Assembly (NCBI GenBank): GCA_001544595.2
Contig: FCOH02000001.1
Span: forward strand, 62,001 to 126,000
Source of the DNA: Caballeronia peredens
GTDB lineage: Bacteria; Pseudomonadota; Gammaproteobacteria; Burkholderiales; Burkholderiaceae
Length of the DNA stretch: 64,000 nt
Direction of reading: 5' to 3'
The notes under the pieces are model-generated. The model ran no database searches, was not told the DNA's origin, and saw only the letters and a list, made by a program, of their open reading frames with translations. Positions within the stretch are counted from its first letter, which is position 1. Every line of letters begins with the position of its first letter. The translations under genes were made by a program, and so were the position numbers. Shown here in pieces: positions 37,395 through 47,420 of this stretch.

Positions 37395-38807
37395 TTATCG
37401 CGTGCCCGCGCTGCCGAGGGGCAGTCCGCCCGGATGCAACTTCGCCGCCTCGGTCTCTTCCGGAAGGACATTGCCGGCAGCGAACTGCTCGTCTTCGAGC
37501 GCGGTTTCCGGATAGCGCTCAGGATAGAGATGCCGCTCGCTTGCGGCGACATCGAACGTGCGCGACCACTTCGCGATCACCACGGTCGCAAGACTGTTGC
37601 CGATGGTGTTGCAGGTCGCGATCGCCATCGACATGAAGCGATACACGCCGAAGATCAGTGCGAGCCCTTCGACGGGAAGAATGCCCGTCGACGTCACCGT
37701 CGCCGCGAATACGACAAACGATCCGCCCGACACGGTTGCCGCGCCCTTCGACGTGAGCAGCATCAGCAACAGAATGCCGATCTGATGATCCAGCGTGATC
37801 GGCACGCCGTACGCGTGCGCGATGAACATCACGCCCATTGACATGAAGATGGACGTGCCGTCGAGATTGAACGCATAGCCGGTGGGCAGCACGAGGCCGA
37901 CCGTTTGCTTCGCGCAGCCGAGCCGTTCGAGCTTGACGAGCAAACGCGGCAGCGCACTTTCCGACGAAGCCGTGCCGAGCACGATGAAAATCTCGTCCTT
38001 GATGTAGCGCAGAAAACGCCACAGGCTGAAACCCGCGAGCTTCGCGATGACGCCCATCACGACGACGATGAACAACACGACCACTGCATAGAAGCTGAAC
38101 ACGAGTTGCGCGAGAGCGATCAGCACGGCCGTGCCGTTGCTGCCCACCGAATACGCGACTGCACCGAGCGTGCCCAGCGGCGCGACTTTCATCACGAGAT
38201 TGACGAACGAGAACAGGACTTCGGAAATGAGGTCGAGTCCTTCGTTGATGCGTACGCGGCGGCGCTCCGGTATTGCGAGAATGCCGATGCCGACCATCAC
38301 CGCAAGCACGACTACCTGCAGCAGTTCACCCTTCGCGAAGGCGCCGATGAAGTTGTCCGGCACCACATGCATGACGAACTCGGTGAAGCCTTGCGGCGCA
38401 GCCTTCGCTGCGGTCACAGGCACCGAGCCGACCGTGACCGATGTCATCGCCTTGCCTGTTTGCAGCAGATTGCCCGCGAGCAGGCCGACGGCGAGTGCGA
38501 TGGTCGAGACCACTTCGAAGTAGACGATCGAACGCCAGCCTACTCGTCCCGCGCTCTTCACGTCGCCGGCCGAGGCGATGCCATGCACGATCGTGAGAAA
38601 CACGAGCGGCGCGACGCCGGCCTTGATGAGCGCGAGAAAGATGTCGCCGAGCACCTTCAGCTGGGCACCGAACCGGGGAAAGATCAGCCCGATTGCAATT
38701 CCGATCACGAGCGCCAGCAATACCTGCATGCCGAGCTTGCGATACCACGGTAACTTCTTCGGGGATGCGGCATGTGCCTCGTCGCGTGATGCGCTTTCGT
38801 TTTTCAT
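37395..38807 (-). CDS. DctA-like dicarboxylate/amino acid:cation symporter
   Basis: 470 residues, eight membrane helices plus two re-entrant hairpins. Diagnostic family motifs: SSESALPRLLVKLERLG (serine-rich HP1), VLPTGYAFNLDGTSIFM, HP2 with SKGAATVSGGSFVVFAATV, and helix 8 CNTIGNSLATVVIAKW. The typical DctA helix-8 wording is RALTN-x-x-GN; here it is IATCNTIGN, so substrate may differ from succinate/malate. The ATG at 38807 has GGAGGAG upstream; an ATG five codons earlier overlaps that site. It follows a fumarase-superfamily lyase by 26 bp and is likely cotranscribed with it as the uptake system for its substrate. Confidence 0.92.
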   Translation of the reverse strand: MKNESASRDEAHAASPKKLPWYRKLGMQVLLALVIGIAIGLIFPRFGAQLKVLGDIFLALIKAGVAPLVFLTIVHGIASAGDVKSAGRVGWRSIVYFEVVSTIALAVGLLAGNLLQTGKAMTSVTVGSVPVTAAKAAPQGFTEFVMHVVPDNFIGAFAKGELLQVVVLAVMVGIGILAIPERRRVRINEGLDLISEVLFSFVNLVMKVAPLGTLGAVAYSVGSNGTAVLIALAQLVFSFYAVVVLFIVVVMGVIAKLAGFSLWRFLRYIKDEIFIVLGTASSESALPRLLVKLERLGCAKQTVGLVLPTGYAFNLDGTSIFMSMGVMFIAHAYGVPITLDHQIGILLLMLLTSKGAATVSGGSFVVFAATVTSTGILPVEGLALIFGVYRFMSMAIATCNTIGNSLATVVIAKWSRTFDVAASERHLYPERYPETALEDEQFAAGNVLPEETEAAKLHPGGLPLGSAGTR

Positions 38808-38833
38808 CGCGTGCTCCTCCATGACTTCGATAA

Positions 38834-40204
38834 TCAAATTTCGCTCGACAGCGCAAGCGCGCGATCCACCATCTGCGGCGCGAGGCCGAGGTAGTTGGCG
38901 GGATCGGTCATGCGGTCGATCGCGGCACGGTCGAAGTGTTTTGTCACATCGGGCAGGGCGGCGAGCGCCTCGGCGAGCGTGCCGCCTGCTTCGTTGACCG
39001 TGCGGCATGCGTCGTACACGATGTCGTGCGCCTGCTGGCGTCCGGTGTAGGGCGCCATGCTCATCATCACGGCTTCCGCGACGATCAGGCCCTTCGTGAT
39101 GCCGAGGTTGTGCTTCATGCGCGCTTCATCGACGATCAGGCCGCCCAGCGCGAACTTCGCCTGATGCAGCGCGCCCGCTGTGAGAATGAAGCTCTCGGGA
39201 ATTGCGATCCATTCGGCATGCCACGGGCCGGTGGCGCGCTCGAAGTCCTGAATCATCGCGTCGATCATCAATCCCGCGTGCTGGCGCACGGCTTTGGCAG
39301 CAGCGAGCATGAGTTCGCTCGAAATTGGATTGCGCTTCTGCGGCATCGTGCTGCTCGCGCCACGTCCTTTCACGAAGGGCTCGTAGACTTCCGCGAACTC
39401 GGTGGAGGCCATGATCATGATGTCGAGCGCGATCTTGCCGAGCGAACCCGTGACCAGCGCAAGAAGGTTCACCGCTTCCGCGAAGCCGTCGCGCGCGACG
39501 TGCCATGTCGTCACGGGTACGCCGAGCCCGAGTTCCTCCGCGAGCGCCTTCTGCACTTCGAAACCCTTGTCGCCGAGCGACGCAAGCGTACCCGCCGCGC
39601 CCCCGAATTCGACGACGGCCACGCGCTTGCGCATCTGCGCCACGCGTTCCTGATGACGGTCGAACATCGCGAGCCAGATCGCGACCTTGTAGCCGAACGT
39701 CACCGGCAAGGCTTGCTGCAAATGCGTGCGTCCCGCCATCGGCGTATCGCGATGCTTCTTCGCGAGACGGCTCAGGATTGCGCGCAGTTCGCGGATATCG
39801 GTGTCGACAACATCGAGCGCATCGCGCACTTGCAGCGCGACGGCCGTATCCATGATGTCCTGCGTGGTCGCGCCCCAATGCACGAAGCGGCCGGCGTCGC
39901 CGCACATGTCGACCATCTGATGCACGAGCGGCAGGATCGGATAGCCGACGATGTCCGTTTCCTCACGCATGCGATCGAAATCGATGCGTTCGATGCTCGC
40001 TTCGCGCGCGATCACTTCCGCAGCCTCGGCGGAAATGACGCCGGCACGCGCTTCGGCCTTCGCGAGCGCCACTTCGACATCGATGTAGCGCTGCACCAGC
40101 GCGTGGTCCGAGAACAGCGCACGCATGTCCGCGGTGCCGAACGCGTCGCGGAAGAGCACGGAATCGAACACCGTGCTGGCCATGGAAGAAACGTGATTCG
40201 TCAT
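38834..40204 (-). CDS. PcaB/adenylosuccinate-lyase-family lyase
   Basis: 456 residues, class II fumarase/aspartase superfamily. Signature GASSTMPQKRNPISSEL around residues 275-290; the conserved GRTHLQQALPVTFGYKVAIW and VHWGATTQDIMDTAVALQ segments carry active-site residues. The closest branch by wording is 3-carboxy-cis,cis-muconate cycloisomerase (PcaB), but there are no other protocatechuate genes here. Partnered with a dicarboxylate symporter and a GntR regulator, it more likely cleaves or forms a C4/C5 dicarboxylic or amino-dicarboxylic acid. The start at 40204 is supported by GAGG upstream. Confidence 0.88.
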   Translation of the reverse strand: MTNHVSSMASTVFDSVLFRDAFGTADMRALFSDHALVQRYIDVEVALAKAEARAGVISAEAAEVIAREASIERIDFDRMREETDIVGYPILPLVHQMVDMCGDAGRFVHWGATTQDIMDTAVALQVRDALDVVDTDIRELRAILSRLAKKHRDTPMAGRTHLQQALPVTFGYKVAIWLAMFDRHQERVAQMRKRVAVVEFGGAAGTLASLGDKGFEVQKALAEELGLGVPVTTWHVARDGFAEAVNLLALVTGSLGKIALDIMIMASTEFAEVYEPFVKGRGASSTMPQKRNPISSELMLAAAKAVRQHAGLMIDAMIQDFERATGPWHAEWIAIPESFILTAGALHQAKFALGGLIVDEARMKHNLGITKGLIVAEAVMMSMAPYTGRQQAHDIVYDACRTVNEAGGTLAEALAALPDVTKHFDRAAIDRMTDPANYLGLAPQMVDRALALSSEI

Positions 40205-40249
40205 ACGAGACCTCTTTCGGAAGCTGAATTCAGGGAAGCGGAGCAATCA

Positions 40250-40265
40250 ATATGTCCGGACATAT
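40250..40265. promoter_or_regulatory. Perfect 16-bp palindrome ATATGTCCGGACATAT (GntR operator 1)
   Basis: Exact palindrome in the 127-bp space between the divergent lyase and GntR genes. It shares the consensus ATATGTYCGRACATAT with the second site 24 bp away (centre to centre). Paired identical-pattern palindromes next to a HutC/GntR gene are strong evidence for its operators and autoregulation. Confidence 0.85.
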
Positions 40266-40273
40266 GCACGTTA

Positions 40274-40289
40274 ATATGTTCGAACATAT
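40274..40289. promoter_or_regulatory. Perfect 16-bp palindrome ATATGTTCGAACATAT (GntR operator 2)
   Basis: Second exact palindrome, differing from operator 1 only at the central C/T and G/A pair, 43 bp before the GntR start. The 24-bp centre spacing is a little over two helical turns, suitable for two dimers on nearly the same face. Confidence 0.85.
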
Positions 40290-40331
40290 CGGGCAAGCTA
40301 TGATTTACCCCAATCACCGAAAACCACTCGA

Positions 40332-41072
40332 ATGGCAGCAATGAACAGACCGCACTTTGCCGATATCGCGCGCGAACTGACCGAGGGCATCGCGTCGGGG
40401 CGCTTTCCTGTCGGCTCTTATCTGCCGACCGAACTGGAATTGCGCGATCACTATCAGACCAGCCGCCACACGGTGCGCGCTGCACTGCACGAATTGCAGC
40501 AACTGGGGCTCGTGTCGCGGCGCAAGAACGCGGGCACGCGCGTGGAGGCCACGCAGCCGCGCAATGACTTTCGTCCGTCGCTCGAATCCGTCGACGATCT
40601 CGTGCAGTTCGGCACCGAGCATCTGCGCCTCGTGCAATCGACGCAGCAGATCGTTGCGTCCGCGAAGCTCGCGAAAACGCTGCGATGCGCCCCAGGCGCG
40701 CCGTGGCTGCGCATTTCCAGCTTGCGTATCGATGGCGACAAGGACAGTCCGCCCATCGGCTGGACCGATGTGTATATCGAGCCGCAATACGAGGAGGTTG
40801 CGGAGGCGGCGAAGGCGCATCCGGATACGCTCGTCAGTTCGCTGATCGAGGCGCGCTATGGGCGTTGCATCGACGAGATTCAGCAAGACGTGCGCGCGAT
40901 CAGCGTGTCGGCGGAAATGGCGAAGCGTCTTCGCGTGGAAGCGGGCACGGCCGCGCTGGAAATCGTGCGGCGTTATCTGGATGCGAGCGGCGTGACGTTC
41001 GAAGTGTCGGTCACGGTGCATCCGGCCGAGCGCTTCTCCGTGTCGATGCGATTGAAGCGGTCGCAAGGCTGA
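40332..41072 (+). CDS. GntR-family regulator, HutC subfamily (UTRA domain)
   Basis: 246 residues: GntR winged helix at residues 5-75 (FPVGSYLPTELELRDHYQTSRHTVRAALHELQQLG written in pieces across the HTH), then UTRA ligand domain about residues 95-240 with the typical WTDVYIEP strand. Likely a repressor of the divergent lyase-symporter operon, released by an organic-acid ligand bound in the UTRA pocket. The two palindromes immediately upstream are its presumed operators. Confidence 0.92.
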   Translation: MAAMNRPHFADIARELTEGIASGRFPVGSYLPTELELRDHYQTSRHTVRAALHELQQLGLVSRRKNAGTRVEATQPRNDFRPSLESVDDLVQFGTEHLRLVQSTQQIVASAKLAKTLRCAPGAPWLRISSLRIDGDKDSPPIGWTDVYIEPQYEEVAEAAKAHPDTLVSSLIEARYGRCIDEIQQDVRAISVSAEMAKRLRVEAGTAALEIVRRYLDASGVTFEVSVTVHPAERFSVSMRLKRSQG

Positions 41073-41076
41073 CAGC

Positions 41077-41116
41077 CATAGGCCTGGCCTATGACGGGCA
41101 AAGGCATCCGATATTT
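41077..41116 (+). promoter_or_regulatory. LysR box plus promoter of the CitE-like gene
   Basis: ATAGG-N5-CCTAT at 41078-41092, a perfect inverted repeat with T-N11-A spacing, followed after the right arm by GACGGGCA and GATATTT; the last element (GATATT, 41110-41115) is placed as a -10 with the LysR site overlapping the -35. The same module, with identical spacing, precedes the MaoC operon. A palindrome CTGCCCGGGCAG at 41122-41133 follows in the leader and may terminate upstream gntR transcription. Confidence 0.82.
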
Positions 41117-41201
41117 GTGGGCTGCCCGGGCAGGCCTTTAAATAGCGGCTACGCGAAGCCTCATCCCGACGGCTCGTTTTCACGTGACCCGAGAGCCCGC
41201 C

Positions 41202-42020
41202 ATGCCGAAAACCGCCCGATATCGCTCGTTGCTGTTCGTCCCCGGCAATCGTCCCGAGCGCTTCGCGAAGGCGCTCGACAGAGGTGCGGATGCGGTTATC
41301 GTCGATCTGGAAGATGCCGTCGCGCCGGAAGAAAAGGACGACGCACGCCGCACAGTGGCCGCGTGGCTTGCACCTGAGCGGCCCGTTCTGCTTCGCGTGA
41401 ATGCGTGCGATACGCCGTGGTTCGAGCGCGACGCGGAACTCGGCAAGCTGGGCGGCGTGGCGGGCATCGTGTTGCCGAAAGCCGAAAGTGCGGCGGACGT
41501 CATCGCGCTGGTCTCGCTCACGAAGAACCGATTGCCGGTGTTTCCGCTGATCGAAAGCGCGAAGGGCATGTTCAACGCGCTCGAAATCGCCCGGGCGCCG
41601 TTTGTGCATCAGCTGATGTTCGGCACGCTCGATTTCTGCGCCGATATGAACATGGCGACGACTGGCAACGCCCTCGATCCGTTCCGCGCGACGCTCGCGA
41701 TGATCTCGAAAGTAGCGGGCATTCGTCCGCCCATCGACGGCGTGACGCCCGCCATCGACGATGATCGTGCGTTGCGAGACGAAACGCTCGACGGCAAGCA
41801 GCGCGGCTTTGCGGGCAAGCTCTGCATTCATCCGAAGCAGGTCGCGACGGTCAACGCATGTTACGCACCGAGCGACGCCGAACTCGTCTGGGCAAACCGC
41901 GTGCTCGATGCCTTCGGTAAGGCGAACGGCGCCGCGATTGCCGTAGACGGAAAGATGGTCGACCGGCCCGTCGTGCTGCGCGCGCAGACCATACTCGAAA
42001 GCGTGGCGAGCCGCGAGTAA
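41202..42020 (+). CDS. CitE-like CoA-ester lyase (candidate citramalyl-CoA lyase)
   Basis: 272 residues, HpcH/HpaI-CitE fold. Motifs: RSLLFVPGNRPERF at the N-terminus, VDLEDAVAPEEK, RVNACDTPW, PLIESAKGM (Mg-ligand Glu) and GTLDFCADM (Mg-ligand Asp). In itaconate catabolism the homologous Ccl splits (S)-citramalyl-CoA to acetyl-CoA and pyruvate; malyl-CoA lyase-like activity is the alternative. It is the single gene downstream of a LysR-box promoter shared with the MaoC operon on the other side of the cluster. Confidence 0.88.
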   Translation: MPKTARYRSLLFVPGNRPERFAKALDRGADAVIVDLEDAVAPEEKDDARRTVAAWLAPERPVLLRVNACDTPWFERDAELGKLGGVAGIVLPKAESAADVIALVSLTKNRLPVFPLIESAKGMFNALEIARAPFVHQLMFGTLDFCADMNMATTGNALDPFRATLAMISKVAGIRPPIDGVTPAIDDDRALRDETLDGKQRGFAGKLCIHPKQVATVNACYAPSDAELVWANRVLDAFGKANGAAIAVDGKMVDRPVVLRAQTILESVASRE

Positions 42021-42082
42021 TAGAATAGGCGACCGGCGCCGGCACATCGAAGCGCGCCCGTCATCGATACTCGCATTCGCAT

Positions 42083-43027
42083 ATGGACGTCCGTCAGCTT
42101 CGCTACTTCGTCAGCATCGTCGACTATGGCAGTCTCGGCAAAGCCGCCGAGAAACTCTATGTCGCGCAGCCATCGCTCAGTCAGCAAATGGCGCGGCTCG
42201 AAGAAGAACTCGGCGTGACGCTTCTTCTGCGCAGCAATCATGGCGTGACGCCGACCGCCGAAGGCGATGCGCTTTATCGTCATGCTCGTCTCGTGCTGCG
42301 CCAGATGGAGCAACTCAAACAGGAAGTCACGAAAGGCGCGGGCGCAGAGTCCGGCACGGTTGCGGTCGGCCTGCCGACGACGATGGCCTCGGTTCTCGCC
42401 GTGCCGCTGTTCGAGCGCATCCAGGATCGGTATCCGGGCATCCGGCTGCAATTCTTCGAAAGCCTGAGCGGCTATCTGAACGAACTGCTCGTGAACGGCC
42501 GGCTCGACATCGCGATTCTGTTTCGCGAATCCGACACGCCGGGCATTTCCGCATTGCCCGTGCTCGATGAAACGCTCTACCTGCTCGGCGAGCCGGGCGG
42601 CGATATTTCCCCACGCTCGTCGACCTGTCCGCTGGCGAAGCTTGCGGGTGTGAAGCTGGTCGCGCCGGGCGTATCGAACGGATTGCGGTTGCTGATCGAG
42701 CGCACGTTCGCGGGCGAAAATGTGGAACTGAATATCGTCGCGGATATCGACTCGCTGCCGTCGTTGCTGCTGATCGCGCATTCAGGCAGGGCATGCACGA
42801 TTCTGCCGTCGTCGGCGCTGGCGCAGTGGAACGAAGCGCGTTTGCCGAAGATGCGCAAGATCGTCGATCCGGTCATCAGGCGGCCGGCGAGCATTTGCTG
42901 GCCCAACGGCGCGCCGTTGAATTCGGCGACGGTCGCGGTTCGCGAGACGTTGATTCAACTCATCGCCGAGCAAGTCGAACGTGCGAGCTGGCAAGGCGTG
43001 ACGATGCGCGAACGTGCGCGCGTCTGA
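42083..43027 (+). CDS. LysR-family regulator of the C5-acid (itaconate-type) cluster
   Basis: 314 residues; HTH at residues 1-60 (MDVRQLRYFVSIVDYGSLGKA, then VAQPSLSQQMARLEEELGV), effector domain from about residue 90, in the Nac/CbbR-like style seen for regulators of itaconate clusters. It lies 62 bp after the CitE-like gene and convergent to the CoA-transferase operon. It is the probable binder of the ATAGG-N5-CCTAT sites upstream of both arms; a lone ATAGG half-site is at 42025-42029 just before it. Confidence 0.9.
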   Translation: MDVRQLRYFVSIVDYGSLGKAAEKLYVAQPSLSQQMARLEEELGVTLLLRSNHGVTPTAEGDALYRHARLVLRQMEQLKQEVTKGAGAESGTVAVGLPTTMASVLAVPLFERIQDRYPGIRLQFFESLSGYLNELLVNGRLDIAILFRESDTPGISALPVLDETLYLLGEPGGDISPRSSTCPLAKLAGVKLVAPGVSNGLRLLIERTFAGENVELNIVADIDSLPSLLLIAHSGRACTILPSSALAQWNEARLPKMRKIVDPVIRRPASICWPNGAPLNSATVAVRETLIQLIAEQVERASWQGVTMRERARV

Positions 43028-43040
43028 GCGTCGGACGTCT

Positions 43041-44219
43041 CTAGATTGCGCCCTCGTCGCGCAAACGTTCGATGGCGCCGGCATCGAGGCCCAGTTCGCG
43101 CAGAATGGCTTCGGTATGCTGGCCGAGCGCGGGCACGGCGTCCATGCGAGGTTCATCGGACGCGCTCAGGCCCGGCGGAAGGAGCGCGGGAATCGAACCC
43201 GCGGGCGTATCGACGCGCGTCCAGCGATGCCGTGCTTCGAGTTGCTCGTGTTGCCAGACATCGTGCATGTCGTTCATGCGCGCATTGGCGATGCCGGCCG
43301 CTTCGAGCCGTTCGATCACCTGAGTCGCGGTGAGCGGTTCGAAGGCTTCGAGAATGATGCGCGTCAGTGCTTCGCGATGCTGCGTGCGGCGGGTATTCGT
43401 GCAGAAGCGTTCATCGTCCTGCAGTGCGGGTTGACCGATCACACTCTCGCAGAACTTCTTCCATTCGCGTTCGTTTTGCAGGCCCAGCATGACGGTCTTG
43501 CCGTCGCCGGCCTGAAACGGGCCATATGGGAAGATGGTCGCGTGAGAAGCGCCCGCGGCGCGCGGCGGCGTTTGTCCGTCGATTGCGTAGTAAAGCGGAA
43601 AGCTCATCCACTCGACCATGCTTTCGAGCATGGAAACGTCGATGCGTTTGCCGCGCCCCGTCGTGCCGCGTTCGATCAGCGCCGCGAGTATGTTGCTATA
43701 CGCGTACATGCCGGCTGCGATATCGGCGATCGAACAGCCGGCCTTCGCCGGTTCGCCTTCGGAGCCGGTAACGCTCAGAAAGCCTGATTCGCTCTGAATC
43801 AGCAGGTCATAGGCTTTCTTGTCGCGCAGCGGGCCGTCGGAGCCGTAACCCGAGATATCGCACACGATCAGACGCGGATAGCGATCCTTCAGCGTGTCGT
43901 AGTCGAGACCTAGCCGTTGCGTCGCGCCGGGCGCGAGATTCTGCACGAAGACATCGGCGTCTTCGAGCAGCGTGTGCACCAGATCGAGCGCGTGCGGATG
44001 CTTCACGTCGAGCGTGAGGCTTTCCTTCGAACGATTCGTCCAGACGAAATGCGACGCCAGCCCTGACACGCGCTCGTCATAGTTGCGAGCGAAATCACCT
44101 GTTCCCGGGCGTTCGATCTTGATCACGCGCGCGCCGAGATCGGCGAGTTGCCGCGTGCAGAAGGGCGCTGCGATTGCATGCTCGAACGTGACGACCTTGA
44201 TACCCTTCAGCGGACGCAT
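43041..44219 (-). CDS. Class III CoA-transferase (candidate itaconate CoA-transferase)
   Basis: 392 residues, CaiB/BaiF family. N-terminal PLKGIKVVTFEHAIAAPFCTRQLADLGARV, nucleotide-loop region RSKESLTLDVKHP, and the catalytic aspartate Asp166 in SIADIAAGMYA. It transfers CoA from a donor such as succinyl-CoA to a carboxylic acid. Context with a MaoC hydratase and CitE-like lyase fits activation of itaconate, mesaconate or citramalate. It follows the acyl-CoA dehydrogenase by 12 bp, last gene of a three-gene operon. Confidence 0.92.
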   Translation of the reverse strand: MRPLKGIKVVTFEHAIAAPFCTRQLADLGARVIKIERPGTGDFARNYDERVSGLASHFVWTNRSKESLTLDVKHPHALDLVHTLLEDADVFVQNLAPGATQRLGLDYDTLKDRYPRLIVCDISGYGSDGPLRDKKAYDLLIQSESGFLSVTGSEGEPAKAGCSIADIAAGMYAYSNILAALIERGTTGRGKRIDVSMLESMVEWMSFPLYYAIDGQTPPRAAGASHATIFPYGPFQAGDGKTVMLGLQNEREWKKFCESVIGQPALQDDERFCTNTRRTQHREALTRIILEAFEPLTATQVIERLEAAGIANARMNDMHDVWQHEQLEARHRWTRVDTPAGSIPALLPPGLSASDEPRMDAVPALGQHTEAILRELGLDAGAIERLRDEGAI

Positions 44220-44231
44220 GACCGGCCTCCT

Positions 44232-45395
44232 TCAGAACGAGCGCGGCAAATCGAGGATATGCTCCGCGACATACGCGAGAATCAGATTCGTCGAAATGGG
44301 CGCGACCTGATAGAGACGCGTCTCGCGGAACTTGCGCTCGATATCGTATTCCGCGGCGAAGCCGAAGCCGCCGTGAAATTGCAGGCACGCATTGGCCGCT
44401 TCCCACGAGGCGTCGGCGGCGAGCAGCTTCGCCATGTTCGCCTGCGCGCCGCAATGTTGGTGCGCGTCGAAAAGCGCGCAGGCCTTGAAGCGCATCAGAT
44501 TGGCCGCTTCGATATTGACATAGGCCCGCGCGATAGGAAATTGCACGCCCTGATTCTGGCCGATGGGACGCCCGAACACGACGCGATCCTTCACGTATTG
44601 CGAAACGCGGTCGATGAACCAGTAGCCGTCGCCGATACATTCCGCCGCGATCAGCGTGCGCTCGGCGTTCAGACCATCGAGAATGTACTTGAACCCCATT
44701 CCTTCTTCGCCGATGAGGTTTTCGGCGGGAATCTCCAGATTGTCGAAGAAGAGTTCGTTGGTCTCGTGATTCACCATGTTGAGGATCGGCCGGACTTCGA
44801 GCCCGTGGCCGATCGCCTCGCGCAGATCCACGATGAAGATCGACATGCCCTCGCTCTTCTTCTTCACGTCCGCAAGCGGCGTGGTGCGCGCGAGCAGGAT
44901 CATGAGGTCGGAATGCTGAACGCGCGAGATCCACACTTTCTGGCCGTTGATCACATAGCGGTCGCCTTTCCTTTCGGCGGTCGTCTTGATCTTCGTCGTA
45001 TCGGTGCCGGTGGTCGGCTCGGTCACGCCCATCGATTGCAGGCGCAGTTCGCCCGACGCGATCTTCGGCAGATAGCGCTTCTTCTGCTCCGCCGATCCGT
45101 GCCGCAACACAGTTCCCATGTTGTACATCTGCCCATGGCACGCACCCGAGTTGCCGCCCGAACGATTGATCTCTTCCATGATGACGGACGCCTCGGTAAG
45201 ACCCAGCCCGGAGCCGCCGTATTCCTGCGGAATCAGTGCGGCGAGCCATCCCGCTTTCGTGAGGGCATCGACGAATGCTTCGGGATAACCGCGCGCTTCG
45301 TCGATCTTGCGGAAGTATTCGTTGGAGAACTGGCCGCACAGATCGCGCACGGCTTCGCGAATGTCCTGATAAGCGTCGGGTGTGGTTTCGATCAT
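44232..45395 (-). CDS. Acyl-CoA dehydrogenase of the C5-acid operon
   Basis: 387 residues with standard ACAD domains: N-terminal helical (LIPQEYGGSGLGLTEA), middle beta (MGVTEPTTGTDTTKIKT), C-terminal helical (LQFHGGFGFAAEYDIERKFRETRLYQVAPIS). The position where many ACADs carry the catalytic Glu (IYEG) reads LYQV, so the base must be elsewhere or the enzyme is unusual; the tail APISTNLILAYVAEH occurs in a recognised ACAD branch. A homologue sits in the P. aeruginosa itaconate cluster. It may oxidise a saturated side substrate such as methylsuccinyl-CoA. Confidence 0.88.
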   Translation of the reverse strand: MIETTPDAYQDIREAVRDLCGQFSNEYFRKIDEARGYPEAFVDALTKAGWLAALIPQEYGGSGLGLTEASVIMEEINRSGGNSGACHGQMYNMGTVLRHGSAEQKKRYLPKIASGELRLQSMGVTEPTTGTDTTKIKTTAERKGDRYVINGQKVWISRVQHSDLMILLARTTPLADVKKKSEGMSIFIVDLREAIGHGLEVRPILNMVNHETNELFFDNLEIPAENLIGEEGMGFKYILDGLNAERTLIAAECIGDGYWFIDRVSQYVKDRVVFGRPIGQNQGVQFPIARAYVNIEAANLMRFKACALFDAHQHCGAQANMAKLLAADASWEAANACLQFHGGFGFAAEYDIERKFRETRLYQVAPISTNLILAYVAEHILDLPRSF

Positions 45396-45422
45396 GATGT
45401 GCGAAGGGACGGGTTCGTGTTC

Positions 45423-46265
45423 TCAGGCGAGCGTGGCGCGTGCGGTCATGCCGAGCCAGCCTTCGTGGTCCTTGGACCAGAGTTCGACGGTCTTGCCGTC
45501 CGCCGATGGCTGTCCGCACAGATGCAGCATATTGCCGGCGAAACACGGTCGCTGCGCCTTGAACGAAAAGTCGATGACGACGGCATCGGGCAACTGGCGG
45601 CGCAACAGATCCATCAGCAGCGTGGCGATCAACGGCCCATGCACGACGAGCCCCGGATAGCCTTCGACCTGTGTCACGTAAGGCTTGTCGTAATGGATGC
45701 GATGCGCGTTGAAGGTCAGCGCGGAATAGCGCAAAAGGAGCGTTTCATCGGGGAGAATGTCACGCTGCCAAAGCGCGTCACGCGGCGCGGCGGCGGGTGC
45801 AGACGCGGGCGCGCCCGGCGCAACGGGCTCGCGATACACGATGTCGTGTTCTTCCTCGATTGCGGTGACATCGCCTGAGCAAATGCGATGCCCGACGGTG
45901 ACGAAGCCCAGCTTGCCTGTGCGTCCGTGCTTCTCCTTCACGTCGAGAATGCGCGATTCACGCGTGATGTCGCGGCCGACGATCACCGGCGCCGGGAAAC
46001 GCAGACGTCCGCCCGCCCACATGCGGCGAGGCAAGCCGAGGTCGGGCAGAAAGCCGCCTTTCTTCGGATGCCCGTCCTCCGCAATCAGCGACTGCCGGAC
46101 GACCGGTCTGAAGAAAATCCAGTGCCACAAGTGAGGAAGCGCGTCGCCGTCGCCGGGCGCGATGTCATGGTCGAGCGTCGCGGCGAGCGCTGCGACGGAT
46201 GTCGGCGCGACGAAATCGGCCGCGCTTTCCGTGCGCTCTCTGAATGATGCGAACGGGTCGTCCAT
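45423..46265 (-). CDS. MaoC-type hydratase (candidate itaconyl-CoA/mesaconyl-CoA hydratase)
   Basis: 280 residues, double hot-dog: an N-terminal FAS1-like dehydratase half (about residues 1-140) and a C-terminal half carrying the hydratase-2 motif FNAHRIHYDKPYVTQVEGYP and GLVVHGPLIATLL. This is the mesaconyl-C4-CoA/itaconyl-CoA hydratase type. It would convert itaconyl-CoA to citramalyl-CoA for the CitE-like lyase. First gene of the operon; GGAG eight bases before the ATG; LysR-box promoter about 85-120 bp upstream. Confidence 0.9.
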   Translation of the reverse strand: MDDPFASFRERTESAADFVAPTSVAALAATLDHDIAPGDGDALPHLWHWIFFRPVVRQSLIAEDGHPKKGGFLPDLGLPRRMWAGGRLRFPAPVIVGRDITRESRILDVKEKHGRTGKLGFVTVGHRICSGDVTAIEEEHDIVYREPVAPGAPASAPAAAPRDALWQRDILPDETLLLRYSALTFNAHRIHYDKPYVTQVEGYPGLVVHGPLIATLLMDLLRRQLPDAVVIDFSFKAQRPCFAGNMLHLCGQPSADGKTVELWSKDHEGWLGMTARATLA

Positions 46266-46347
46266 TGTGTTGTCTCCGTGGCTGGCTGCTCGGCCAGCGA
46301 ATTGTGTCTGGTACCGAAGACTTTAGGGAAACACGCGGCGGATGGGA

Positions 46348-46385
46348 AATATCAGTTTCATGTGCCCGACATAGGATGAACCTAT
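46348..46385 (-). promoter_or_regulatory. LysR box plus promoter of the MaoC-ACAD-CoA-transferase operon
   Basis: On the minus strand: ATAGG-N5-CCTAT (46385-46371), then GTCGGGCA and GATATTT, with GATATT at 46353-46348. Box, spacer length and the conserved CGGGCA and GATATTT elements match the module at 41077-41116. The distance from GATATT to the start codon is also nearly the same (82 versus 86 bp). Confidence 0.82.
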
Positions 46386-46389
46386 TGCG

Positions 46390-47298
46390 CTATGAATCGC
46401 CGCCCAAGGACTCCACGATGAAGTCGATGAATGCGCGCACTTTCGCCGCAGGCAGATGCCGCGACGGGTACAGCGCGTAAAGCGAAAAGCTGTCGCCGGC
46501 GTAATCGGGCAGCAATTCGATCAGCGTGCCGTCCGCGATCGAATCCTGCACGCCGCTCTTCTTGAAGCGCGCGATACCCGCGCCCGACAAGCATGCACCG
46601 AACATGGTCGCGACATCGGTGACGAACAGGCGCCCGGCTGGACGCGCGTGATATTGCGTGCCCTTGCGCGTATAAGTCCAGTCGAGCGGCTCGCCCGTCA
46701 TCGGACTGCGCATCTGGATGCACGCATGCTGCGCGAGGTCGGCGGGCGTCGCGGGCTCGCCGTGTTTCGCGATATACGAAGGCGACGCGACCGTCACCGT
46801 GTTCGTCGACAGCAGCTTTCGCGCGACAAGCGACGACGACGGCGGTTCGCCGAAGCGCACCGCAATGTCATAGCCCTCGGACACGAGATCGCCGAGCTGA
46901 TCGCGCGTGACGAGATCGAGCGTCACTTCCGGATAGCGCGTTAGAAAGCGCTCGAGTTGCGGCGCGAGCATCAGGCGCGAGAAGAACGAATCGACATTCA
47001 CGCGCAGGCGGCCCTTCACGACATTCGATGCATCCCCCGCGGAAGTGATGGCATCGCCGATACCCGCGAGCAATGGATTGATCTGTTCATAGAAGCGCCG
47101 GCCTTCGTCGGTCAGCTTGACGGAGCGCGTGGTTCGTTCGAGCAGGCGCACGCCGACGCTCGACTCCAGCCGGCCGACCGCGCGGCTCACGCCCGAAGGC
47201 GTGATGCCGAGCAGCACGGCCGCGCGCGCGAAGCTGCCGCTTTCGACCACCGCCGCCAGCACGCTGACATTGGCGAGCACACGTCCATCGAATCCCAT
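46390..47298 (-). CDS. LysR-family transcriptional regulator
   Basis: 302 residues from ATG 47298; a GTG two codons earlier lies too near the AGGA. HTH SFARAAVLLGITPSGVSRAVGRLESSVGVRLL at about residues 24-56, given here as the span rather than a motif copy, and an effector domain resembling the AaeR/DsdC-type 'CrgA-like' group (RLRVNVDSFFSRLMLAPQL). Divergent from an NmrA-like reductase gene (122 bp gap), which is the likely target. Confidence 0.9.
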   Translation of the reverse strand: MGFDGRVLANVSVLAAVVESGSFARAAVLLGITPSGVSRAVGRLESSVGVRLLERTTRSVKLTDEGRRFYEQINPLLAGIGDAITSAGDASNVVKGRLRVNVDSFFSRLMLAPQLERFLTRYPEVTLDLVTRDQLGDLVSEGYDIAVRFGEPPSSSLVARKLLSTNTVTVASPSYIAKHGEPATPADLAQHACIQMRSPMTGEPLDWTYTRKGTQYHARPAGRLFVTDVATMFGACLSGAGIARFKKSGVQDSIADGTLIELLPDYAGDSFSLYALYPSRHLPAAKVRAFIDFIVESLGGDS

Positions 47299-47420
47299 GA
47301 GCACGATTCCTGATTTCGAGTCATCAATGTTATGACAGGCACGCTATTTCCTCAACGAAAGCGCCGCCCTAAGATGCACTCCATCGCATCCATCCATCGA
47401 CATGCATAAGGAGTCGAAAC

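Follow-up and report, generated by a model that had tools for sequence, protein, structure and literature searches.

Comparative evidence for a two-armed methylsuccinate/itaconate regulon with a candidate LysR activator in Caballeronia peredens

Do two operons that face each other on a contig of Caballeronia peredens answer to one regulator, and which acid do they serve? The question arose from a stretch of 64,000 nucleotides (GenBank assembly GCA_001544595.2, contig FCOH02000001.1, positions 62,001 to 126,000; hereafter the window, with positions counted from its first letter), in which the palindrome ATAGG-N5-CCTAT stands ahead of a CitE-like gene and again ahead of an operon that begins with a MaoC-type hydratase gene. 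The original prediction took this box to be the recognition sequence of the LysR protein encoded at 42083, here called LysR-A. A regulon of two arms under one regulator is well supported by our comparative evidence: the module that contains the box occurs at only these two sites in the genome and is conserved ahead of pathway genes in relatives. We consider it likely that LysR-A binds this 39-bp module ahead of both arms and activates both together.

With moderate confidence we favour a broader reading, in which a so far undescribed LysR activator unrelated to ItcR, acting through a 39-bp two-site operator, would run an isomerase-free methylsuccinate/itaconate regulon, often bearing electron-transfer flavoprotein (ETF) genes, across the Burkholderiaceae. 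The regulator gene would, in the Caballeronia line, have moved into its own activated operon, giving positive feedback, and the ETF genes would have been excised repeatedly with promoter and reading frame kept on citE. If true, this shows how operator and promoter are laid out for a C5-dicarboxylate regulator not close to ItcR, and the system could serve directly as a candidate methylsuccinate or itaconate sensor and as a marker by which Burkholderiaceae genomes can be searched for the regulon. It would also indicate a catabolic regulon that brings its own ETF, and a natural series of deletions that drop etfBA and retain promoter and lyase.

Two convergent arms and their shared module

The two operons had been called distant, a description that did not hold: they are convergent and 5.3 kb apart. 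Arm B, on the forward strand, reads box, CitE, LysR-A, and arm A, on the reverse strand, reads box, MaoC hydratase, dehydrogenase, CoA-transferase.

41078 to 41092, forward: predicted palindromic LysR site of arm B, ATAGG-N5-CCTAT (exact match; form conserved in 22 distinct arm B sequences)
41202 to 42020, forward: CitE-like lyase of arm B, likely (S)-citramalyl-CoA lyase (Ccl); PDB 8khl, E 1.4e-54
42083 to 43027, forward: LysR-A, likely cognate regulator, in arm B after a 62-bp gap behind CitE
43041 to 44219, reverse: family III CoA-transferase of arm A, likely itaconate/methylsuccinate CoA-transferase (Ict)
44232 to 45395, reverse: acyl-CoA dehydrogenase of arm A, likely methylsuccinyl-CoA dehydrogenase (Mcd)
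45423 to 46265, reverse: MaoC-type hydratase of arm A, likely itaconyl-CoA/mesaconyl-CoA hydratase (Ich)
46371 to 46385, reverse: predicted palindromic LysR site of arm A, ATAGG-N5-CCTAT (exact match; form conserved in 33 distinct arm A sequences)
46390 to 47304, reverse: LysR-B, a distinct LysR gene adjoining arm A, not conserved with the module

Acyl-CoA lyase chains were the best PDB matches of the CitE protein (E 1.4e-54). The MaoC protein matched two PDB sequences, 8huc (E 2.8e-67) and 8khg (E 1.1e-66), the latter named itaconyl-CoA hydratase, and LysR-A contains HTH_1 and LysR_substrate domains, both above the gathering score.

Both reported copies of the box were found as exact matches. 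The second had been described as inverted, which is correct for the orientation of its flanks, the box itself being palindromic. Two exact matches in the window compare with a mean of 0.01 in 100 shuffles, and the 6.73-Mb genome holds exactly two copies, at the same two sites. However, base composition alone predicts about 2.4 copies of this 15-mer per 6.73 Mb, so that two are unremarkable by number; the count alone was dropped as evidence, and it is the position, the flanking identity and the conservation of a longer module that carry the case. Relaxing the box to two mismatches was uninformative (six matches in the window, 4.4 expected).

The flanks reach well beyond the palindrome. Downstream of it both arms have GNCGGGCA and GATATTT at equal spacing; the recurrence of CGGGCA and GATATTT had been noted originally and holds. 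The arms agree at 28 of the first 39 positions. A 39-bp pattern built from both arms had two matches in the window at up to three mismatches and none in 100 shuffles, and across the whole genome it matched only these two sites, both at zero and at up to three mismatches. The distance from GATATTT to the start codon is 85 bp for CitE (ATG at 41202) and 81 bp for MaoC (ATG at 46265), close to the nearly equal 86 and 82 bp first reported.

Conservation of the module and its co-occurrence with LysR-A

Conservation was examined in the best 80 of 527 loci with CitE relatives, using tblastn matches that covered at least half of the query. LysR-A was scored at 65% identity or more and the dehydrogenase at 80% or more. 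Among these 80, all 15 loci with LysR-A and the dehydrogenase had the module and no MmgE/PrpD isomerase in view. All 27 loci with dehydrogenase and isomerase were without the module, as were all three with the dehydrogenase but neither isomerase nor LysR-A. One further LysR-A locus (L009) was without the strict pattern, its hydratase end lying beyond the fetched stretch. Seven loci had an arm B copy and no LysR-A within the fetched stretch; in G263, the genome assigned to one of them (L039), LysR-A adjoins arm A about 65 kb away.

For genome-wide scans we used a relaxed pattern of 39 positions, MTAGG...RTAKTT, which was written after the CitE-relative loci had been seen. It matched 20 places in 13 of 58 genomes of the genus, and 68 places in 42 of 398 Burkholderiaceae genomes (these 58 included), spread over 7 of 25 genera. 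The reversed pattern, run as a control, had no match in the 398 genomes, and outside the family the relaxed pattern was absent from all 386 genomes of the order that were scanned.

LysR-A at 65% identity or more was found in 39 of the 398 family genomes (in one, G057, as a 94% partial copy), and the module was present in 38 of these 39. In the remaining one, G105, both module copies exist and each has one base outside the pattern. Counted by genome, 38 had both LysR-A and module, one LysR-A only, four the module only and 355 neither (Fisher p = 2e-47, with genomes counted regardless of kinship). Within the genus, the module was present in 12 of 12 genomes with LysR-A vs 1 of 46 without, and the association repeats inside the three genera richest in module genomes (g1, g11 and g20). 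The original assignment of the gene at 42083 as cognate regulator is borne out by these counts, and LysR-A is, on comparative grounds, very likely the regulator of the module.

Several observations weigh against this reading. Some of the loci from which the relaxed pattern was drawn come from the genomes scanned, so that its presence there is partly by construction, and kinship among the genomes may inflate the association. Four of the 42 module genomes have no close LysR-A: the best copy is 53% identical in G011, 57% in G089 and 56% in G359, and G145 has no match at E<=1e-100. Among 23 genomes with only a 56-63% copy at E<=1e-100, two have the module. The specificity of the module is also imperfect: the genes behind one copy in G089 (locus L125, 8932) are a tautomerase-like gene and one for an MFS-like transporter. 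This copy may indicate that this LysR group serves other pathways too.

The gene context was viewed for 37 of the 68 module places and then for six more. Genes were recognised there by tblastn from 33% identity upwards (30% in a later round), and the four short own-genome loci L001-L004 were excluded. For 67 copies (with some places entering the count twice), the first gene recognised downstream, at a distance of 78-223 bp, was MaoC in 37, etfB in 20, CitE in 8 and the dehydrogenase in 1; the remaining copy, at a contig edge, reads into etfB. Among the six later places are the G089 copy and the copy in G145, which stands ahead of the dehydrogenase in a locus where no further gene of the cluster was recognised. 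In relatives, MaoC/Ich follows arm A, and arm B is followed either by etfB-etfA-CitE or by CitE alone. The arms differ from each other at unconserved positions, and each keeps its own form in relatives. In one genome, G323 (contigs C48 and C75), the module stands at four places and LysR-A is present twice, which looks like a pair of complete regulons.

Pathway, substrate and the loss of etfBA

The cluster was originally assigned to a C5 acid of the itaconate type. A C5-dicarboxylate pathway is upheld by the 8khg match and by the dehydrogenase identity; the emphasis on itaconate is not, as methylsuccinate is likely at least as good a candidate, and the pathway is best called methylsuccinate/itaconate. 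Homologues of all four enzyme types, Ict, Mcd, Ich and Ccl, occur together in the window cluster, and its dehydrogenase is 81-91% identical to that of the 27 isomerase-bearing clusters (selected with an 80% floor). Clusters of this dehydrogenase-isomerase type have been assayed as methylsuccinate/itaconate degradation in Cupriavidus and Pseudomonas (PMC12290011), and the same gene set was assayed for both acids in PMC9875883, section 2.2.

The cluster shares these four enzyme types with P. aeruginosa PA0878-0886 and with the Cupriavidus necator cluster (ich, mcd, mmgE, ict, ccl), a likeness drawn from enzyme type and from the 27 isomerase-bearing loci. In contrast to them, the window has no MmgE/PrpD isomerase, is split into two convergent operons and has a different LysR and operator, while its relatives add etfBA and sometimes an ETF-ubiquinone oxidoreductase and an MFS transporter. 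The isomerase was found in none of 16 LysR-A loci within the fetched stretches. Genome-wide, the C. peredens assembly has one MmgE/PrpD match, 30% identical and elsewhere on the contig, outside the window. A search of 14 module genomes gave a 67% match elsewhere in G307 and G376 and nothing above 37% in the other 12; G307 and G376 may carry both cluster types. P. aeruginosa requires the dehydrogenase to use methylsuccinate but not itaconate, and requires the isomerase for (S)-methylsuccinate alone (PMC9875883). With the dehydrogenase present and the isomerase absent, (R)-methylsuccinate and itaconate are the likely substrates of the window cluster.

The alternative that survives best keeps the regulon and changes the acid: the true substrate would be another short branched dicarboxylate, and neither itaconate nor methylsuccinate the inducer. 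We regard this as unlikely, though a real contender. The NCBIfam cut-offs of the itaconate family models were missed (RipC 160.9 of 375, RipB 20 of 340), which counts against our assignment, the regulon is without the methylsuccinate isomerase, and a role in other pathways has been argued for the second Ich and Ccl homologues of C. necator (PMC12290011). Against this stand the four enzyme types found together and a dehydrogenase so close to that of the assayed cluster type.

In many relatives the etfB-etfA pair of arm B, in some with ETF-ubiquinone oxidoreductase, would take the electrons from the dehydrogenase. In the window this pair was removed by a clean deletion that left the promoter on citE (41117-41202). 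Its leader matches the one ahead of etfB in L101, and from there on the match lies in the region of the etfA stop and the gap between etfA and citE in L005, which places the scar as follows.

41183 to 41186, forward: approximate scar of the etfBA deletion, from the leader alignment with L101 and L005

Arm B could be followed from box to citE in 21 regions, all of which keep both. The etf pair is whole in 11 (L008, L010, L011, L014, L019, L023, L031, L033, L039, L123 and L136) and missing or cut in 10 (the window, L006, L012, L021, L024, L027, L032, L104, L134 and L135). In seven of these ten the remnants share a single reading frame, either inside the etf pair or continuing into citE (L006, L021, L024, L032, L104, L134 and L135), and in L021 and L032 the remnant frame runs into citE. 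In L024, L104 and L134 tblastn identified the two remnant ends, whereas for L006, L021, L032 and L135 the identification was partly visual; the etfA piece of L032 scores 21.9 bits. Contigs often end inside etfBA (L005, L007, L016, L090 and L097), so that single cases may be assembly errors, an explanation countered by the G134 and G143 assemblies, which consist of two and four contigs. An ETF-ubiquinone oxidoreductase gene (etfQO) follows citE in L011, L018, L019, L032 and L136 (named by Pfam in L019). The C. peredens genome has one etfA match, on another contig, and the 13 relatives searched have 2 to 10 each, partial matches included; after the loss, the window's dehydrogenase would have to rely on an ETF whose genes lie elsewhere in the genome.

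An MFS transporter gene adjoins the CoA-transferase gene in L010 (11886-13286), L008, L011, L012, L014, L019, L123, L134 and L136; unlike these relatives, the window has none there. Directly upstream of arm B, 37395-41072 encodes a DctA-like carrier, a PcaB/adenylosuccinate-lyase-like enzyme and a GntR regulator. This block is 89-92% identical in L008 (and L099, of the same genome); in none of the other loci compared did it stand next to the module at that level of identity.

Predicted promoter layout and mode of regulation

The promoter layout was read from an alignment of 33 distinct arm A and 22 distinct arm B sequences, from which four short loci of the own genome (L001-L004) were left out. 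Across these 55 arms the strong columns are the palindrome, GGCA, TATTT or TAGTT, and then a -10-like element. The elements assigned in the window are these.

41100 to 41114, forward: likely second, weaker site of arm B, AAAGGCATCCGATAT, 22 bp from the first and over the likely -35
41138 to 41144, forward: likely -10 element of arm B, within TTTAAATAG, aligned with CAAATAG/CAAATGG/TGTAAT
46320 to 46325, reverse: likely -10 element of arm A, TAAAGT, from the alignment of arms
46349 to 46363, reverse: likely second, weaker site of arm A, ACATGAAACTGATAT, from module self-similarity

TAAAGT or TACAGT stands at index 60 in 25 of the 33 arm A sequences, with one match at 61 and seven sequences without; CAAATAG, CAAATGG or TGTAAT stands at index 60-62 in 19 of the 22 arm B sequences. 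The likely -10 is thus at index 60-62 in 45 of the 55 copies, about 21 bp beyond the GATATTT site, and the centre of the palindrome would likely lie near -65 of the predicted transcription start. GATATTT had itself been taken for the -10 before these arms were aligned; it is likelier part of a second, weaker site over the -35. Self-similarity of the module is highest at an offset of 22 (mean 6.51 of 15 vs 1.5-5.3 at the other offsets from 15 to 31), which equals two helical turns, so GGCA...TATTT is most simply read as a second weak LysR site over the -35, and probably is one. Two points tell against the layout: the window's own arm B element, TAAATAG, with T for the first C, is a weak match, being among the three of 22 that do not fit, and the offset-22 peak was judged among offsets only, without comparison with shuffles. 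The claim that the exact box is the recognition sequence stands in part: the palindrome is conserved, and the unit is probably the palindrome together with a weaker site 22 bp downstream.

Such an arrangement would suit a LysR tetramer, with one dimer on the palindrome at about -65 and the other 22 bp further on, at the weaker site that covers the -35. The inducer, a C5 dicarboxylate or the CoA ester of one, would shift the second dimer, upon which polymerase would start. LysR-A would thereby activate CitE and its own gene in arm B jointly with the MaoC-dehydrogenase-CoA-transferase operon of arm A. In the window and its nearest relatives LysR-A lies behind citE on the same strand; given the 62-bp gap, it is probably cotranscribed with CitE and would then be self-activated. 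A footprinted LysR activator, BhbR1 of Pigmentiphaga kullae, resembles this layout, with a 15-bp ATA-N9-TAT site of the -65 kind and a weak activation site over the -35; its site is without the GG/CC of ATAGG-N5-CCTAT, and it controls 3-bromo-4-hydroxybenzoate genes (PMC12016517).

LysR-A might instead bind the module and mainly repress, until a C5 acid releases it. Activation is indeed not a given, which speaks against our reading: ItcR of Yersinia pseudotuberculosis, likewise of the LysR type and linked to Ict/Ich/Ccl genes, has been described as a repressor whose effect itaconate lifts (PMC11275114), and in the relatives with a divergent LysR-A gene the palindrome sits close to its start, which fits autorepression. 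Yet a palindrome near the predicted -65 with a likely second site over the -35 is the usual layout of LysR-activated promoters, and we saw no good -35 hexamer by eye, which makes predominant repression rather improbable.

By its sequence LysR-A is not ItcR-like, since its match to the ItcR chain 7w06 (E 4.4e-14) covers residues 1-146 only, and OxyR and BenM chains rank above it; PMC9636186 gives the name ItcR to 7w07 and 7w08. Its best NCBIfam matches were NAC (249.6 bits) and CynR (146.3 bits), both below cut-off (309 and 277), and, unlike NAC/CynR-like proteins, LysR-A is tied to one pathway, not to nitrogen control. We found no paper on this regulator or its box among open-licence PubMed Central titles and abstract starts, and the words LysR and regulator do not occur in PMC12290011.

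Control of the module by LysR-B was also considered, its stop codon ending 4 bp from the arm A palindrome, and was rejected on conservation. LysR-B had no match above 37% identity in loci L005-L119, whereas LysR-A tracks the module, and in L017, L019 and L023 it is LysR-A that diverges from arm A, starting 24-28 bp from the palindrome; we hold a role for LysR-B to be very improbable. An origin of the two copies by chance or by recent duplication, with no regulatory role, has the expected number of the bare 15-mer in its favour and can practically be dismissed, given arms that differ at unconserved positions yet are each conserved in relatives, and the absence of the pattern from all 386 genomes outside the family.

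More distant LysR-A homologues were inspected for boxes ahead of their own genes. Those of G089, G359 and G010 have no ATA-N9-TAT within 220 bp upstream. The homologue in G202 (60-61% identical; L131, upstream of 9910) has ATAGC-N5-GCTAT at -62, differing at matching positions of the two half-sites, and the upstream region in G011 shows ATAATTCGTACCTAT. In G353 (59-60% identical; L133, 8175-8189) the full ATAGG-N5-CCTAT stands at -86 from the homologue's own start.

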